Assembly: GCF_009739905.1 (NCBI RefSeq)
Contig: NZ_CP034279.1
Location: 1,488,001 to 1,552,000, forward strand
Reading direction: 5' to 3'
Length of the DNA: 64,000 nt
Source: Streptomyces ficellus
Lineage (GTDB): Bacteria; Actinomycetota; Actinomycetes; Streptomycetales; Streptomycetaceae
Shown: in pieces, positions 4,654-12,001 of the stretch
How positions within the stretch are numbered: the first letter of the stretch is position 1
Layout of the letters: each line of letters starts with the position of its first letter
The notes under the pieces: model-generated
Database searches by the model: none
What the model was told of the DNA's origin: nothing
The model's input: the letters and a program-made list of their open reading frames with translations, nothing else
Made by a program: the position numbers and the translations under genes

Positions 4654-5322
4654 GTGAGCAGCAACGACGCACCCCAGTACGTCCTCCCCCTCGTCGTCCG
4701 CGTCGAGAAGACCGAGCCGCCCGAGCGCACCGACGCGCTGGAGACCGCCGCGCGGGCGGTGCTGGTGATGCTGTCCGACGACCGGTCGCTCGGCGACGGG
4801 GAGTGGGCCGGGGCCGTGCGCGCCTGGCAGGACGCACGGATCCGCAAGGTGGTGCGCAGGGCGCGCGGCGCGGAGTGGCGCAAGGCCTCGCAGCTCCCGG
4901 GCATCACGGTCACCGGCGCCACGGCCGAGGTGCGGGTCTTCCCGCCCGTGCCCCTGGACGGCTGGCCCAAGGAGCTGGCCAAGCTCCAGGTGTCGGGCAC
5001 GGAACTGGACGACACCGGCGAACTGCCCGACGTGCGCCCCGGGCAGGCGCTGCTGTGGCTCAACCCGGACCTGCACATGTCGACCGGCAAGGAGATGGCC
5101 CAGGTCGGTCACGGCGCCCAGCTGCTGTGGTGGGCGATGACGGACGAGGACCGCGAGGCCTGGCGGGACGCCGGCTTCCCGCTCGCGGTGCGCACCGTTC
5201 ACCCCGACCGGTGGGCCGAACTGACCACGAGCGGGCTGCCGTTGGTGCGGGACGCGGGTTTCACGGAGATCGCCCCCGGGTCGTCCACCGTGGTCTCCGA
5301 CTTCCCGGTCAAGGGCGACTGA
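4654..5322 (+). CDS. peptidyl-tRNA hydrolase II (PTH2) family protein
   Basis: A 222-aa protein whose C-terminal half carries the PTH2 signature HMSTGKEMAQVGHGAQLLWW (residues about 144-163). Family members cleave the ester bond between peptide and tRNA when peptidyl-tRNA drops off the ribosome. The N-terminal half (YVLPLVVRVEKTEPPERTD..., then TARAVLVMLSDDRS) is an extension not found in archaeal PTH2 and may be a degenerate duplicate. The GTG at 4654 is the start that excludes non-coding upstream codons. Actinobacteria normally also have the unrelated Pth1, so this is likely an auxiliary hydrolase. Confidence 0.8.
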   Translation: MSSNDAPQYVLPLVVRVEKTEPPERTDALETAARAVLVMLSDDRSLGDGEWAGAVRAWQDARIRKVVRRARGAEWRKASQLPGITVTGATAEVRVFPPVPLDGWPKELAKLQVSGTELDDTGELPDVRPGQALLWLNPDLHMSTGKEMAQVGHGAQLLWWAMTDEDREAWRDAGFPLAVRTVHPDRWAELTTSGLPLVRDAGFTEIAPGSSTVVSDFPVKGD

Positions 5323-5381: not shown

Positions 5382-6152
5382 TTGTTGTTGCGACGCATCA
5401 ACGGCACGGCACTCATCATCGCGGCCCTCGTCGTCACGGTCGGGGCGCTCGCGTTCCCGGTCTGGTCGTACGCCGACCGCTCCGGCACCGGCCAGGCCAA
5501 TCTCAACGCCTCGACCGTGGCCACCCAGTGGGGCCCGCTGTCGGCGACGGACCGTGACTTCCTGGTGAAGGTCCGGCTGGCGGGCCTGTGGGAACTGCCC
5601 GCCGGCCAGCAGGCGATCGAGCGGGCGCCCAGCCAGGCGATCAAGGACGCCGGCGACCACCTCGTCGTGGGCCACTCCGACCTGGACCAGCGCGCCCGGG
5701 ACGTGGCGGCGAAGCTGGGCGTGGAGCTGCCCAACCAGCCGTCCGAGCAGCAGCAGGGCTGGCTGCGCGAGCTGTCGGCGGCCAGCGGCGAGGAGTACGA
5801 GCGCAAGTTCGCCAACCTGCTGCGCAACGCGCACGGCAAGGTCTTCGCGCTGGTCGCCCAGGTCCGGCACACGACCCGCAACGCGCTGATACGGCAGCTG
5901 GCGAGCGACGCCAACCAGACGGTGCTGGACCACATCACGATGCTGGAGGCGACCGGGAAGGTCGACTTCGACGCGATCGCCAACGAGGCGGCGGGGAACG
6001 CGACCGCGAGCCCGTCCGGCCCGCCGGCCCCCAACGGCAACCTGCCGCCGGCGCCGTCGCCGGCGGTGCCGACCGGGAACGACCAGTCGTTCACGTCCCG
6101 GCCCTCGACGCAGCCCGGCCCGCCGACGGCCATCAACACGACCCGCCCGTGA
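5382..6152 (+). CDS. DUF4142 (ferritin-like) membrane-anchored protein
   Basis: A 256-aa protein with an N-terminal hydrophobic segment (INGTALIIAALVVTVGALAF) and a DUF4142 domain (about residues 45-195: LSATDRDFLVKVRLAGLWE...). A Pro/Ser/Thr-rich tail follows, likely disordered and surface-exposed. The start is a TTG at 5382, one of three consecutive TTG codons. It is chosen because GGGAGG at 5369-5374 lies at an optimal 7 nt upstream. DUF4142 proteins are helical-bundle, often exported proteins of unknown function. Nothing in the neighbourhood adds to that. Confidence 0.8.
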   Translation: MLLRRINGTALIIAALVVTVGALAFPVWSYADRSGTGQANLNASTVATQWGPLSATDRDFLVKVRLAGLWELPAGQQAIERAPSQAIKDAGDHLVVGHSDLDQRARDVAAKLGVELPNQPSEQQQGWLRELSAASGEEYERKFANLLRNAHGKVFALVAQVRHTTRNALIRQLASDANQTVLDHITMLEATGKVDFDAIANEAAGNATASPSGPPAPNGNLPPAPSPAVPTGNDQSFTSRPSTQPGPPTAINTTRP

Positions 6153-6257
6153 TGACCGGTCCGTAACCTCAAATCAAGCTCTGAACTGCGGTTCCTTCGT
6201 TTCGCGCCGCCGCCTGCGGGGCCATTACCCTTCCGACCGACGCAGGAGGAGGGGGAC

Positions 6258-7571
6258 ATGAGGGAACTGGGTACCGGCATCGGCTGGCGTCCGGAGATCG
6301 CGGACGCGGTGGAAGCGCTGGACGGGGTGGACTGGGTGGAGGTGGTCGCGGAGAACGTCTGCGCCGGCCACCTCCCCGACTCTCTCGTGCGGCTGCGCGA
6401 GCGGGGCGTGACGGTCGTCCCGCACGGCGTGTCGCTGGGCCTGGGCGGCGCGGACCGGCCGGACGCGGAGCGGCTCGCGGAGCTGGCGGCGAAGGCCACG
6501 GCCCTGGGGGCGCCGCTGGTCACGGAGCACATCGCGTTCGTCCGGGCCGGGGGCCCGCTGACCGCCTCCCCCGCCCTGGAGGCGGGCCACCTGCTGCCGG
6601 TCCCGCGCACCCGGGACGCCCTGGACGTGCTGTGCGAGAACGTCCGCATCGCCCAGGACGCGCTCCCGGTGCCGCTGGCGCTGGAGAACATCGCCGCGCT
6701 GTTCTCCTGGCCGGGCGAGGAGCTGACGGAGGGGCAGTTCCTCGCCGAGCTGGTGGAGCGCACGGGCGTCCGCCTCCTGATCGACGTGGCGAACCTGCAC
6801 ACCAACCACGTCAACCGGGGCGAGGACCCGGCGAAGGCGCTGGCGGAGCTGCCGGTGGAGGCGATCGCGTACGTCCACGTGGCGGGTGGCGTCGAACGGG
6901 ACGGCGTCTGGCACGACACCCACGCCCACCCGGTCCCGCCCGCGGTCCTGGACGTCCTGTCGGACCTCGCCTCCCGGGTCAGCCCGCCGGGCGTGCTGCT
7001 GGAACGGGACGACGACTTCCCGCCGCCAAAGGAGCTGGCGGGCGAACTCGCCACCATCCGCGCGACGGTGGCGGCCGCTGCCGTGGCGGGTGCGCCGACC
7101 CGTGCCCGGGGTACGCGAACCGCCGCCGGCGGCACCGGCCCGGATGCCGGGGCCGGGGCGCGGGAGCGGCTGGGGATCGCGCAGGCCGCGCTGCTGTCGG
7201 CGCTGGTGGCCGGGACGCCCGCGCCCGAGGGGTTCGACCACGCGCGGCTGCGGGTGCAGAGCCGGGCGCTGGCCGGCAAGCGGGCCGGCGTGGTCGCCAG
7301 GCTGGCGCCCGAGCTGCCGGAGATCCTCGGCGACGGCTACCGGCACGCGTTCCTCGCGTACGCCGCGGCCCACCCCCTGCGCGGCGGCTACCGGCGGGAC
7401 GCGCTGGACTTCGCGGAGCACCTGCTGATAGCCGGGCGACCCGACGACCCCGGAGCCCGCCAAAGGCTCACCGCCTGGTGGCAGGACCGTGCCGGGGCGC
7501 GTCCGCCCGGCAGGGCGACCCGGCTGGTGCGCGCCGCCCGTGCCGCGTTCGTGGGGAGGCGGGCCGCGTGA
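6258..7571 (+). CDS. MNIO (DUF692) multinuclear iron oxidase fused to a partner-like C-terminal domain
   Basis: The N-terminal region (about 1-275) is a DUF692/MNIO TIM barrel. This family uses two or three irons and O2 to rework cysteines or other residues of peptides; MbnB and TglH are the known examples. Candidate ligands are His56 (VVPHGVS), His91 (LVTEHIAF), Glu143 (LALENIAAL), Asp176/Asn179/His181 ([12 protein letters not shown]), His207 (IAYVHVAG), His219-His224 (WHDTHAH) and Glu249 (LLERDDDF). A low-complexity Ala/Gly linker (about 271-300) leads to a helical domain ([45 protein letters not shown]). That domain resembles the DUF2063/HvfC-type partner protein that is normally a separate gene. 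AGGAGGAGGGGG precedes the ATG. Its stop overlaps the start of the Cys-rich membrane protein by 4 nt, so that protein is the likely substrate. The chemistry is unknown. Confidence 0.85.
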
Positions 7572-8575
7572 ACGTCCTCGTCATCCTCGTCTACATCGCC
7601 GTCGTCGTCTCGTCGGCCCTCCTCATCAGGGGCGTGGCCGCCTCGCGGCGCGGGCCGGGCGGTTCCGTCCACTACCGGGTGGAGGCCGCGTTCCTGGGCG
7701 GCGGCCCCGCCCGGGTCGTCGACTCCGCGCTCGCCTCGCTGCAGGGCAACGGGCGGGTGACCGTCGGCGGACCGGGCATCGTGCACGTGGTCCGCGCGGT
7801 GGGCGACGACCCGGTCGAGCGCGCCGTGCTGCACGAGCTGTCCGCCGCGCCCAGCGGTGCGCTGCACGTGGTGCGGCTGGCCGCGATGCGCAACCCGGCG
7901 GTCCAGGAGATCGGCGACCGGCTCGCCGCGCGCGGGCTCATCGTGCCGCGTTCGGCCGGACGCACCTGGCGCCGGTGGAGCGCCGCGCAGGCGATCGGCT
8001 GCTTCGTGCTCTTCCCCGTGTCGATCCTGGTGACCGTGGCCGAGTTCGCCGCCGCCGACCTCGGTGACACCCCGTTCCCGTTCGTGGTCACCGTCCTGCC
8101 CGCCGTGCTCCCCGGCCTGGTGATCGCGATGATCTGCGGAGCCGTCGCGAGCAGGCGGCTGACCGGCGCGGGCCGCCGCGCCCTCGCCGCGTACCGCAGG
8201 GCGGAGGGGCACCGGACCGGGCCGGGAGACCTGGTGGCGCTGAACGGGCTGGGCGCGCTGCCCGACCCGGTGTTCCAGGAGCAACTGGTCGCCGCCGCCC
8301 GGATGTACGGCGGACGGAGGCGCCGTGGTGTGGGCGCGTCGACCACGGCACGGGAGCGGGACGACCTGTTCTCCGGTGTCACGGTCGCGGTGTGGTGCGC
8401 CAGCGCCGAGACGGGCGGCTCCAGTTGCGGCGGAGGCTGCGGAGGCGGCGGCGGAGGCGGCTCCGCGTGCAGCGGCGGGTCGAGCTGCGGAAGCGGTGGG
8501 GGCGGCGGCGGGTCGAGCTGCGGTGGCGGTGGCGGGTCCAGCTGCGGGGGCGGCGGAGGCGGAGGCGGCGACTGA
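7568..8575 (+). CDS. TIGR04222-type membrane protein with Cys/Gly-rich C-terminal tail (candidate MNIO substrate)
   Basis: A 335-aa protein whose GTG start overlaps the MNIO stop codon (GTGA), so translation is coupled. Transmembrane segments are predicted at about 4-23, 141-161 and 171-195. A soluble stretch ([20 protein letters not shown]...) between the first two and a second one after 195 ([10 protein letters not shown]...[10 protein letters not shown]) are shared with the paralogue downstream. From residue 283 the chain becomes almost pure Gly, Ser and Cys, with cysteines at 287, 291, 301, 307, 318 and 326 (plus 277), mostly as SSCG or SACS. The TIGR04222 family is known for such low-complexity Cys/Gly tails. 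I infer that the tail is the region modified by the oxidase, or a metal-binding tail, displayed at the membrane. Ordinary disulfide or metal binding without modification is the main alternative. Confidence 0.8.
8414..8572 (+). repeat. low-complexity GGC/GGA repeat encoding the SSCG-type Cys/Gly tail
   Basis: These 53 codons use an almost monotonous GGC/GGA/GGT pattern interrupted by AGCTGC or AGTTGC (Ser-Cys) units. Six cysteines fall at spacings of 4, 10, 6, 11 and 8 residues. The purine-rich strand is prone to slippage, so repeat number is expected to differ between strains. It is part of the membrane-protein gene, not a separate element. Confidence 0.75.
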
Positions 8576-8682
8576 CGGCGTCCGACCGTCCAACGTACTA
8601 CTGTGGCAGAAGAGTTGAGGGCAGGCCCGGCAACCTTCCGCCGGGTCGCCGCGCCTCCCGCTAGCGTGCGGCGCACCATGCG

Positions 8683-8853
8683 ATGCTGCGGCAGGAGCAC
8701 GGCGCCCTCTTCTCCGCCGCCGCCGAGATCCGCGCCACCACCGGCGACACCCTCGTCCGGGCGCTCGCCGACGACGTCGTGCGCCTCCTCCTGCGGGACC
8801 TGAACGCCCTGGAGGCGATCACGACGAGCGGTCACCGTACGTCCACATCGTGA
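8683..8853 (+). CDS. small ORF (56 aa) coupled to the tail-less TIGR04222 paralogue
   Basis: The ATG at 8683 opens a 56-codon frame beginning MLRQEHGALFSAAAEIRATT, continuing TLVRALADDVVRLLLRDLNALEAI. It has strongly GC-ending codons, a predicted helical hairpin and no Cys. Its TGA (8851-8853) overlaps the GTG of the next gene in a GTGA arrangement, as for the MNIO pair, which supports translation. No good ribosome binding site is seen in front of it. It could be a real small protein of the locus, or a remnant of a longer helical protein. Function unknown. Confidence 0.45.
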   Translation: MLRQEHGALFSAAAEIRATTGDTLVRALADDVVRLLLRDLNALEAITTSGHRTSTS

Positions 8854-9659
8854 AAACCCCGTGGCGCCGCACCCCCCGCCTCGCGTACAACTCCGGCATG
8901 TTCTGGGTCCCCTTCCTGCTGGTGACGTGGGCCGCGGCGGCCATCAGCTGTGCGCGGCTGTGCCTGGCCGCCGTCGAGGCCGCGCGGCCGGTGCCCGCCA
9001 CCACGCACGGCGAGCCCGAACTGAGCCTGTACGAGGCCGCGTTCCTGGCCGGCGGCCCCCAGCGGGTGACCGACCTGGCGCTGGTGGTGATGCACCGGCG
9101 GCGACGGCTGTGGCTGGCGCACACCGGCTGGGCGACGGTGGTGGACCCGGAGGGCGCGGACGACCTGGAGCGGTCCGTGATCGGGGCGATAGGGCCCGGG
9201 GGCCAGTCGCGGATAGCGGCGGTACGCGCCACGGCGTCGGCCGCCGACGCGGTACGGGCGCTCGCCGACCGGCTGGTCACGGCGGGGCTGGCCGTCCCGG
9301 ACGCGGCCAGGTCGGGCATCGTCGCCGCGCTGCGGGCCGTACGGGGCGCGGCCGTCCTGACCGTGGTCCTCGCGGCGGCCACCGTCGTGCTGCTGCCGGC
9401 CGAACACGCCCCGGACGCCCGGGGGATGGCCTGGTTCGCCCTCCCGCTGGTCCTCACCCTCGGGTGCCTGGTGATCGCGCGCGTCGAGGTCCACCCGTAC
9501 ACCCGCTGGGCCTCCCCGGCCGGGCAGAGCCTGCTGGCGAAGATGGGCACGGCGGGCACGCGCGACCCGCTCGCCGCCCTCGCCATCGGCGGGCTCAAGG
9601 CGCTCGACGACCCGGAGCTGCGGGCGGCTCTCTCGCCGGGGCGGCCGGGCGACCGGTGA
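8850..9659 (+). CDS. TIGR04222-type membrane protein, paralogue without the Cys tail
   Basis: A 269-aa protein with an N-terminal transmembrane segment (FWVPFLLVTWAAAAISCARL), the family stretch YEAAFLAGGPQRVTDLALVV, and two further hydrophobic segments around 165-180 and 188-205. It ends soon after LAALAIGGLKALDDPELRAA, so it lacks the Gly/Ser/Cys tail of its neighbour. The GTG at 8850 overlaps the preceding small ORF. The ATG at 8899, right before the membrane segment, is an alternative start but has no ribosome binding site. A paired tail-bearing and tail-less arrangement suggests that the two proteins assemble together in the membrane, with only one carrying the modifiable tail. This is inference from gene order. 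Confidence 0.75.
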   Translation: MKTPWRRTPRLAYNSGMFWVPFLLVTWAAAAISCARLCLAAVEAARPVPATTHGEPELSLYEAAFLAGGPQRVTDLALVVMHRRRRLWLAHTGWATVVDPEGADDLERSVIGAIGPGGQSRIAAVRATASAADAVRALADRLVTAGLAVPDAARSGIVAALRAVRGAAVLTVVLAAATVVLLPAEHAPDARGMAWFALPLVLTLGCLVIARVEVHPYTRWASPAGQSLLAKMGTAGTRDPLAALAIGGLKALDDPELRAALSPGRPGDR

Positions 9660-9834: not shown

Positions 9835-10548
9835 TCAGGCGAGACCCGCGACCAGATCCGCGACCGACTTGCGCCGGCCGGTGTAGAACGGGACCTCTTC
9901 CCGGACGTGCATCCGGGCCTCGGAGGCGCGCAGGTGACGCATCAGGTCCACGATCCGGTACAGCTCGTCCGCCTCGAACGCGAGGATCCACTCGTAGTCG
10001 CCGAGGGAGAACGAGGCGACCGTGTTGGCGCGCACGTCGGGGTAGCCGCGGGCCATCTTGCCGTGGTCGGCGAGCATCCGGCGCCGGTCCTCGTCGGGCA
10101 GCAGGTACCAGTCGTAGGAGCGCACGAAGGGGTACACCGAGACGTAGTCGCGCGGGGTCTCGTCGGCGAGGAAAGCCGGGATGTGCGACCGGTTGAACTC
10201 GGCGGGGCGGTGCAGCGCCATGTTCGACCACACCGGCTCCAGCGCACGGCCGAGCCGGGTGCGGCGGAAGAGGTTGTACGCCTCCTGGAGCGCGTCCGAG
10301 GTCTCGGCGTGCCACCAGATCATCAGGTCGGCGTCGGCGCGCAGACCGGAGACGTCGTACGTGCCACGGACGGTGACGTCCTTGCCGGCGAGCTGGTCGA
10401 ACAGCTCCTGCACCTCGTCGGCGTACCCGGCCCGGTCCTCGGGCAGGACGTCGCGCAGCTTGAACACGGACCACAGGGTGTAGCGGATGACCTCGTTGAG
10501 GTCCTTCGCCTTCTTACCGGCGTTCGGGATCTTTTCGGGCGCACTCAT
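9835..10548 (-). CDS. hemQ: coproheme decarboxylase HemQ (chlorite dismutase family)
   Basis: The last enzyme of the coproporphyrin-dependent haem pathway of Gram-positive bacteria, which decarboxylates coproheme to haem b using peroxide. The 237-aa chain carries the family landmarks [47 protein letters not shown] (with the tyrosines of the catalytic region), [15 protein letters not shown] (proximal-His region) and [19 protein letters not shown] 10548 is chosen over a GTG at 10569 because the longer form adds a non-conserved MTSENSP. The gene follows hemG with 4 bp between stop and start, so the two form an operon. Confidence 0.92.
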
Positions 10549-10552
10549 AGGG

Positions 10553-12001
10553 CTATTCTCGCTCGTCACTCAGGGTGCCTTGCGCCAGGGTCGGCGTGGC
10601 GAGGATCTCGTCCGCCGCACGGCGGGCACTGGCGACGCAGGCGGGGATGCCGACGCCGTCGTACACGGCTCCGCACACGCGCAGCGCGGGCAGCTTGGCG
10701 ACGGCGTCACGGACGCGGGCGACGCGGGCGAGGTGGCCGACGGGGTACTGCGGCAGGCCGCCGATCCAGCGGGTGACCTCGGTGGCGACGGGCCGGGCGG
10801 CCAGCCCGGTGGCGGCGGCGAGGTCGGTGAGGGACACGGACACGAGTTCGGCGTCCTCCCGGTGCAGGTGCTCCTCCTCGCCGTACCGGCCGACGGAGGT
10901 GCGCAGGACGACGAGGTCGCCGGAGCCCTCGCCGGTCCACTTCCACTTCTGGGACGAGAAGGTGGACGCCTTGATGGTGCGGCCGTCGACGGGCGGGACG
11001 AGGAAGCCGGAGCCCTCGGGCAGCGCGCCGGCCACGTCCGCCCGCCGGAAGGCGAGGGTGACCAGCGCCATGGAGGCGTACTCGACGGCGGCCAGTTCGG
11101 CGGCGGCGGACGGGGACTCGGCGGCGAGCAACTCGGAGGCGGACCAGGCGGGGGTCGCGACGACCACGGCGTCGGCGTGGCGGACCAGGTCGCCGGTGCG
11201 GACGTCCCAGCCGCCCCGGGCCGAGCGGGTCAGGCCGTGGACGGGCGTGTCGGTGAGGACCTCGCCGCCCTGCGCGGTGATCGCGTCGGCGACCGCCCCG
11301 GGCAGGGTGCCGATGCCGCCGGCGATGCCCATGAACGCGGGCCCGGTCTGTGCCTGCGCGCCGCGCTGGAGGGCGCGTACCGCCTCGGTGAGGGTGCCGT
11401 GGGCGCGGGCGGCCTCGAAGAGCTTGGGCACGGCGGCGCGCATCGAGATCGCGTACGCGTCACCCGCGTACACCCCGCCGAGGAGCGGTTCGACGAGCCG
11501 GTCGACGACCTCGCGGCCCAGGCGGTCGGCGACGAACCGGCCGACGGCGACGTCGTCGCCGAGGGCGGTGGCGTCGGCGGGGGGCAGGTCCCGCTCGTGC
11601 TCGATGCGGGCGAGGCCCTCGGCGGTCAGCAGCCCGGCGAGGGCGGTCGCGTCGCCGGGGACGCCCATGACGTGGCCCTTGGGCATCGGGCGGAGCGCCC
11701 CCCGGGTCCAGACGGCGGCGCTGGTGGTGGCGGGCGGCTGGAGGCGGTCGCCGAGGCCGACGGCGCGGGCCAGGTCGACCGCCTCGGGGCGGCGGGCCAG
11801 CATCGACTCGGCGCCGAGGTCGACGGGCACGCCGGCGATCTCGCCCGCCCGGAGCTTGCCGCCGAGGGTGGTGGTGGCCTCCAGCAGGGTCACCCGCCGC
11901 CCGGCGGTGGCCAGCCGGTGGGCGGCGGCGAGGCCCGCGATGCCGCCGCCGATGACGACGATGTGGCCGCGCTCGTGTGGGGCGCCTGTGTCCGCGTTCA
12001 T
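10553..12001 (-). CDS. hemG: coproporphyrinogen III oxidase / protoporphyrinogen oxidase HemG (HemY/CgoX type)
   Basis: A 482-aa FAD-dependent oxidase. In the actinobacterial pathway it oxidises coproporphyrinogen III to coproporphyrin III with O2. It has the dinucleotide-binding [17 protein letters not shown] near the N-terminus, then [15 protein letters not shown] and a C-terminal [16 protein letters not shown] followed by [22 protein letters not shown], which closes the FAD site. The length is normal for the family. The gene is first in the hemG-hemQ pair. The 87-bp gap to the divergent flavoprotein gene must hold promoters for both. Confidence 0.92.

Follow-up and report, generated by a model that had tools for sequence, protein, structure and literature searches.

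The locus described here raises the question of what an MNIO (DUF692) oxidase modifies when its gene overlaps that of a membrane protein ending in a Gly/Ser tail with several cysteines. It lies in a window of 64,000 nucleotides (the whole stretch of DNA that was analysed) from an actinobacterial genome of 7.08 Mb in one contig. The original prediction, in which the tail cysteines are the target of the oxidase, had already been published as a prediction, since Antoine et al. 2025 (PMC12452194) propose that the Cys-rich C-terminal tails of TIGR04222 proteins are MNIO substrates. We found neither an experimental study of the TIGR04222/MNIO pairing nor a report that any TIGR04222 protein is modified. 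According to the same study (PMC12452194), a third of the genomes with TIGR04222 are without MNIO, the TIGR04222 clusters contain no DUF2063 genes, PME-type 2 partners are found in at least 10% of these clusters, and how those without partner genes work is left open.

The features of the locus are collected in Table 1. An AIM24-like gene on the minus strand is followed, on the plus strand, by genes encoding a PTH2-like protein, a DUF4142 protein, the MNIO, the Cys-tailed TIGR04222 protein, a DUF4142 remnant and a tail-less TIGR04222 protein, and then by the HemQ gene on the minus strand. The predicted oxidase gene is indeed present (PF05114, E 2.8e-78, 263 bits for a curated cut-off of 25), and so is its coupling to a three-helix membrane protein with six tail cysteines, the two reading frames sharing four nucleotides (GTGA, 7568-7571). 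The small ORF and the tail-less paralogue expected downstream are also there, the former matching the C-terminal part of the neighbouring DUF4142 proteins (E about 1e-9), which makes it a pseudogene remnant and rules it out as a precursor peptide. The original prediction overlooked an additional domain of the oxidase and a conserved element upstream of its gene. The genome contains one MNIO gene and two TIGR04222 genes, both at this locus; a third TIGR04222 match is weak and unconvincing. The second DUF4142 copy, which has decayed here, is intact at the equivalent place in many other Streptomyces. The block adjoins haem-synthesis genes, and the same neighbourhood recurs in Streptomyces.

Table 1. 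Features of the MNIO/TIGR04222 locus (positions in the window)
Feature	Position	Strand	Remarks
PTH2-like peptidyl-tRNA hydrolase domain protein	4654..5322	+	conserved neighbour; cf. 'adjamnio-II' of PMC12452194
DUF4142 protein, no Cys	5382..6152	+	conserved neighbour 5' of MNIO
Conserved element AACCTCAAATCAAGCTCTGAA (consensus AASCTCAAATNNNGCTCTGAA), probable operator/promoter element of the MNIO operon	6165..6185	+	
MNIO (DUF692) oxidase, 437 aa; catalytic domain ~aa 6-270	6258..7571	+	PF05114
Partner domain fused to the MNIO C-terminus (aa ~300-437)	7155..7568	+	homologous to separate PME-type-2-like genes beside MNIO elsewhere
TIGR04222 three-helix membrane protein with Cys tail, 335 aa, proposed substrate	7568..8575	+	TIGR04222 model
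Gly/Ser tail with six Cys besides the WC motif; predicted to be disordered	8393..8572	+	pLDDT <50, residues 257-335
Small ORF, decayed second DUF4142 gene	8683..8853	+	matches DUF4142 C-terminal part
Tail-less TIGR04222 paralogue (true start perhaps 8898)	8850..9659	+	TIGR04222 model, 135 bits
HemQ	9835-10569	-	367 bits

Is the enzyme likely to be functional? H56, H91, E143, D176, H207, D220, H222 and E249 are invariant in the MNIO alignment and are the putative iron ligands, and the His/Asp/Glu/Asn positions do not vary across all locus architectures. The enzyme retains, as judged from this alignment, a set of His, Asp, Glu and Asn residues able to bind an iron cluster. Among NCBIfam models, BufB fits it best (180 bits, under the cut-off of 310), and the MbnB model matches it weakly (E 4e-7); its best 80 relatives are all from Streptomyces, with up to 87% identity.

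The protein exceeds the length of the catalytic domain by about 140 residues. The MNIO is only about 300 aa long, and an adjacent separate ORF matches exactly this extension, in eight type-II Streptomyces loci (the second type) and in many loci of other genera; a stand-alone homologue of the C-terminal domain adjoins the MNIO gene in about twenty other actinobacterial loci. The profile of the fused form aligns to that of 12 stand-alone forms with a probability of 99.7% (hhalign, E 4e-27), and phmmer matches of the fused domain to stand-alone partner proteins go down to 2.5e-50. This homology with an adjacent gene shows that the partner is present here, as a fusion: the last 140 residues or so of the MNIO correspond to a partner protein which is the product of a separate gene in relatives, a finding that is new here. 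Equating the stand-alone proteins with PME-type 2 of PMC12452194 rests on gene position and length. DUF2063 is weakly matched by 4 of 22 fused members, and no match to it above threshold was found in the operon. The predicted model of the domain is helical (mean pLDDT 80, pTM 0.60); a fold search with it (Foldseek, VIA) gave no significant match, 3dee and 8hi7, the structures compared for a DUF2063-like fold, being absent from the list, and the partner profile matched no sequence in the PDB. For this branch of the family, the fused partner would answer the question of how clusters that have no partner gene could work.

The proposed substrate scores 143.3 bits against the TIGR04222 model, for an NCBIfam cut-off of 43 which its paralogue also exceeds. 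The six cysteines of its tail are in the terminal Gly/Ser stretch, just after a nearly invariant Trp-Cys. The best matches in a fold search with the TIGR04222 model are ExbB/TolQ (E 0.6, not significant), proteins that share the three-helix, N-out layout, and a match of the domain to GPP34 (E 0.025) is below cut-off. On which side of the membrane the tail resides can be estimated from charges. In the tailed three-helix proteins of Streptomyces, the sequences flanking the N-terminal domain have a mean net charge of +5.6 and the segment that follows helix 3 one of +2.2, and the helix 2-3 loop averages -1.3. Under the positive-inside rule, such charges predict that both the N-terminal domain and the tail are cytoplasmic, which is also the expected location of the MNIO; 31 of 32 proteins of this kind favour this side for the tail. 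The existence of relatives of the TIGR04222 domain that have no membrane helix fits this location. The 'surface coating' that the original prediction had considered is not supported by the charge pattern. Outside Streptomyces, a crude scan detects a fourth hydrophobic segment in many TIGR04222 proteins, so that subfamilies may not all have the tail on the same side.

If the MNIO modifies the tail, one expects tail cysteines to follow the enzyme. We sampled 150 Streptomyces genomes, 141 with MNIO and 131 with TIGR04222, and classed 77 MNIO loci, leaving out contig-end cases: a Cys-tailed gene is present in 46 (class A), only a tail-less gene in 24 (class B), and neither in seven (class C). The 46 loci with a Cys-tailed gene beside the MNIO are far above chance, keeping in mind that adjacency inside the genus is biased upward because the loci were mostly chosen around MNIO. 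Outside the genus, 62 of 80 TIGR04222-positive genomes have MNIO, and 16 of the 18 others belong to a single family (f87); by our own count in fetched loci, 38 of the 43 MNIO-adjacent TIGR04222 genes encode at least three tail cysteines.

The genomes in which the enzyme is missing or broken are natural knock-outs. The tails of G675 and G809, which have no MNIO, contain no cysteine; in G723, where the MNIO is split over three frames, the neighbouring tail contains one, versus four in its congener G664. G047 and G105 are devoid of MNIO, of the upstream element and of the Cys-tailed gene, while the tail-less paralogue is retained. Five unlinked TIGR04222 paralogues in an MNIO-positive genus (g8) have no cysteine. 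We looked for Cys-tailed genes in genomes with no DUF692 gene, which would argue against the proposal if they were frequent, and only one of six full-length genes was of this kind, in a draft genome. In the draft genome G102 (about 1,420 contigs), no MNIO was found and the tail has three cysteines. In the draft G085, a 7-Cys tail is intact beside an MNIO gene with an internal deletion and a frameshift, which is either a recent loss of the MNIO or an assembly error. The comparison of these genes leads us to conclude that tail cysteines track the MNIO, with no more than one of them where the enzyme is absent or frameshifted and a single draft-genome exception; this covariation is also new here. 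In the 16 MNIO-less genomes of f87, TIGR04222-like proteins have Gly-rich tails with 0-2 cysteines (two in about six of them). These tails are rich in Gly and Trp, and about six end in a CGGGDGGGGGGC-like sequence. In some genomes, such as G587, G608 and G770, the Cys tails are encoded far from the single MNIO gene, which suggests that the enzyme acts in trans. G770 has six TIGR04222 genes, with tails of up to 10 cysteines, and one MNIO, and may be a case of one enzyme with many substrates.

On the contrary, the idea that DUF692 genes always sit beside Cys-tailed TIGR04222 genes has to be abandoned, since in 31 of the 77 Streptomyces MNIO loci the enzyme is intact and a Cys-tailed gene is missing. 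All the class B loci and six of the class C loci form one supported MNIO clade of 30 rows, and on the MNIO tree only two changes are needed to explain where the Cys-tailed gene was lost or not gained. The enzymes of classes B and C keep every iron-site motif and are therefore maintained there for something else. As read from these sequences, the association is not obligate, one large Streptomyces clade keeping an intact MNIO and no tailed protein, another point that is new here. No conserved small Cys-containing ORF was found near the MNIO in loci with no tailed gene; the main recurrent 'peptide', NLKCCSEG, turned out to be the upstream DNA element read in frame. A profile search was made for an unlinked TIGR04222-like protein that is soluble, about 190-240 aa long and rich in Gly and His in its tail: a close member is present in 13 of 35 class B/C genomes, a distant one in 7 of 38 class A genomes, and none in seven MNIO-less genomes. 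Ten of these 13 proteins have cysteine near the very end of the Gly-rich tail, usually one residue, and four in G027. No candidate substrate was found in the remaining class B/C genomes.

The link between this soluble protein and the MNIO is the upstream element. With at most two mismatches over its 18 fixed bases, it is present at the MNIO in 55 of 63 loci, whereas shuffles always gave five or more. It hardly varies among the loci of classes A, B and C, several loci of the second type do not have it, and the host genome contains a single perfect copy. In 16 scanned genomes, it was found at the MNIO and rarely elsewhere (the reversed-pattern control gave 0), but several second copies are directly upstream of the unlinked soluble TIGR04222-like gene, and the element precedes this gene in 9 of 13 loci with at most three mismatches. 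This recurrence of the MNIO element is likewise new here. The element marks a very small set, the MNIO operon and the unlinked soluble gene. It resembles a direct repeat, CTC-A-AA / CTC-TG-AA, with an 11-nt period (window 6165-6185; loci L235-L247 and L337-L347). Three class C genomes (L228, L230 and L231) have a second copy and no detected soluble gene; this orphan element is possibly the relic of a lost gene.

Taken together, co-occurrence and natural knock-outs make it probable, with the reservation imposed by the 31 loci in which the association fails, that this MNIO modifies the tail cysteines of the TIGR04222 protein. Three other explanations have to be weighed. It may be that the main substrate is elsewhere, either in trans or an unseen peptide, and that the Cys-tailed membrane protein is at most accessory. 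The MNIO is more widespread in the sample than the Cys-tailed gene, the 30 sampled genomes of the clade lost or never had the latter with iron-site motifs intact, and an unlinked gene is singled out by the shared element. Yet, outside this clade, the tailed gene adjoins or overlaps that of the MNIO, inside it there is no conserved small Cys ORF near the enzyme, and the soluble candidate is itself TIGR04222-like with a Gly-rich Cys tail. We regard this explanation as rather unlikely, and give about the same weight to the proposal that the tail is extracellular, as in the published topology, and forms a modified, metal-binding surface layer. The latter agrees with the periplasmic C-terminal segment of Antoine et al. 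2025 (PMC12452194) and with the fourth hydrophobic segment seen outside the genus, but the charges of the Streptomyces proteins and the helix-free relatives of the domain argue against it.

It seems still less likely that the tail is not modified at all, its free cysteines binding metal or forming disulfides in a Gly/Ser linker, and that the MNIO is a co-regulated stress gene. The persistence of Gly-rich tails in the MNIO-less f87 genomes and of the G085 tail beside a deleted MNIO would be explained in this way. On the contrary, the loss of tail cysteines where the enzyme is absent or frameshifted, the fused partner domain, and the fact that many MNIO precursors bear cysteines (PMC12452194) would not. 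Besides the f87 tails with two cysteines and G085, we count against tail modification the small proportion of class B/C genomes with a soluble candidate, and the fold searches of both predicted models, which gave no significant match. The alternatives concerning topology and trans substrates are compatible with tail modification, so that our degrees of confidence overlap.

The locus resembles the clusters of PMC12452194, mostly from Actinomycetota, in that an MNIO gene is beside that of a TIGR04222 membrane protein whose C-terminus is a Cys/Gly/Ser tail proposed as MNIO substrate, and some of those clusters also have PME-type 2 partners and a peptidyl-tRNA hydrolase gene. There, however, many clusters have no partner gene, the tail is placed in the periplasm, and gene linkage is the sole basis of the proposal. 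The present locus differs in that its MNIO carries the partner as a fusion, in that charges point to the cytoplasm as the side of the tail, and in that the upstream element also precedes an unlinked gene for a soluble relative. As in bufferins (BufA/BufB/BufC, with DUF2282 precursors), a related MNIO is associated with a partner protein and a presumed substrate with several cysteines, but the locus has no small Sec-type precursor, no DUF2282 and no partner with the DUF2063 signature, the putative substrate is a 335-aa membrane protein, and the BufB score is that of a non-member. In methanobactin MbnABC and in TglH/TglI, as is proposed for this locus, an MNIO and its partner act on cysteines of a ribosomal substrate; these systems differ in their short leader-core peptides and separate partner.

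We propose that the operon is a self-contained modification system. The C-terminal fusion would be the partner, or substrate-binding, domain of the MNIO, which in the cytoplasm would oxidatively modify several cysteines of the disordered Gly/Ser tail encoded by the overlapping gene, the TIGR04222 part serving as a membrane-anchored recognition unit in place of a cleavable leader. By analogy with bufferins, the product may be a thiooxazole. The modified tail would most likely bind a metal on the cytoplasmic side of the membrane, and the precedent of bufferins makes copper the best guess; any particular function of this sort is much less certain than the modification itself. The same MNIO may also act in trans on other Gly-rich Cys tails of the TIGR04222 type, including that of the unlinked soluble protein whose gene has the same element.

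It is a tentative extension of this proposal, less likely than not, that the fused MNIO-partner serves a small regulon of membrane and soluble TIGR04222-type proteins, whose disordered, Gly-rich tails it would modify at cysteines on the cytoplasmic side. What is known of MNIO enzymes comes from peptide products. If the regulon exists, cellular proteins would be modified in trans through a shared docking domain, and the outcome would not be a secreted peptide product. If MNIO enzymes modify resident membrane proteins, this modification would be part of the ordinary physiology of most Streptomyces, given that 141 of the 150 sampled genomes have an MNIO.
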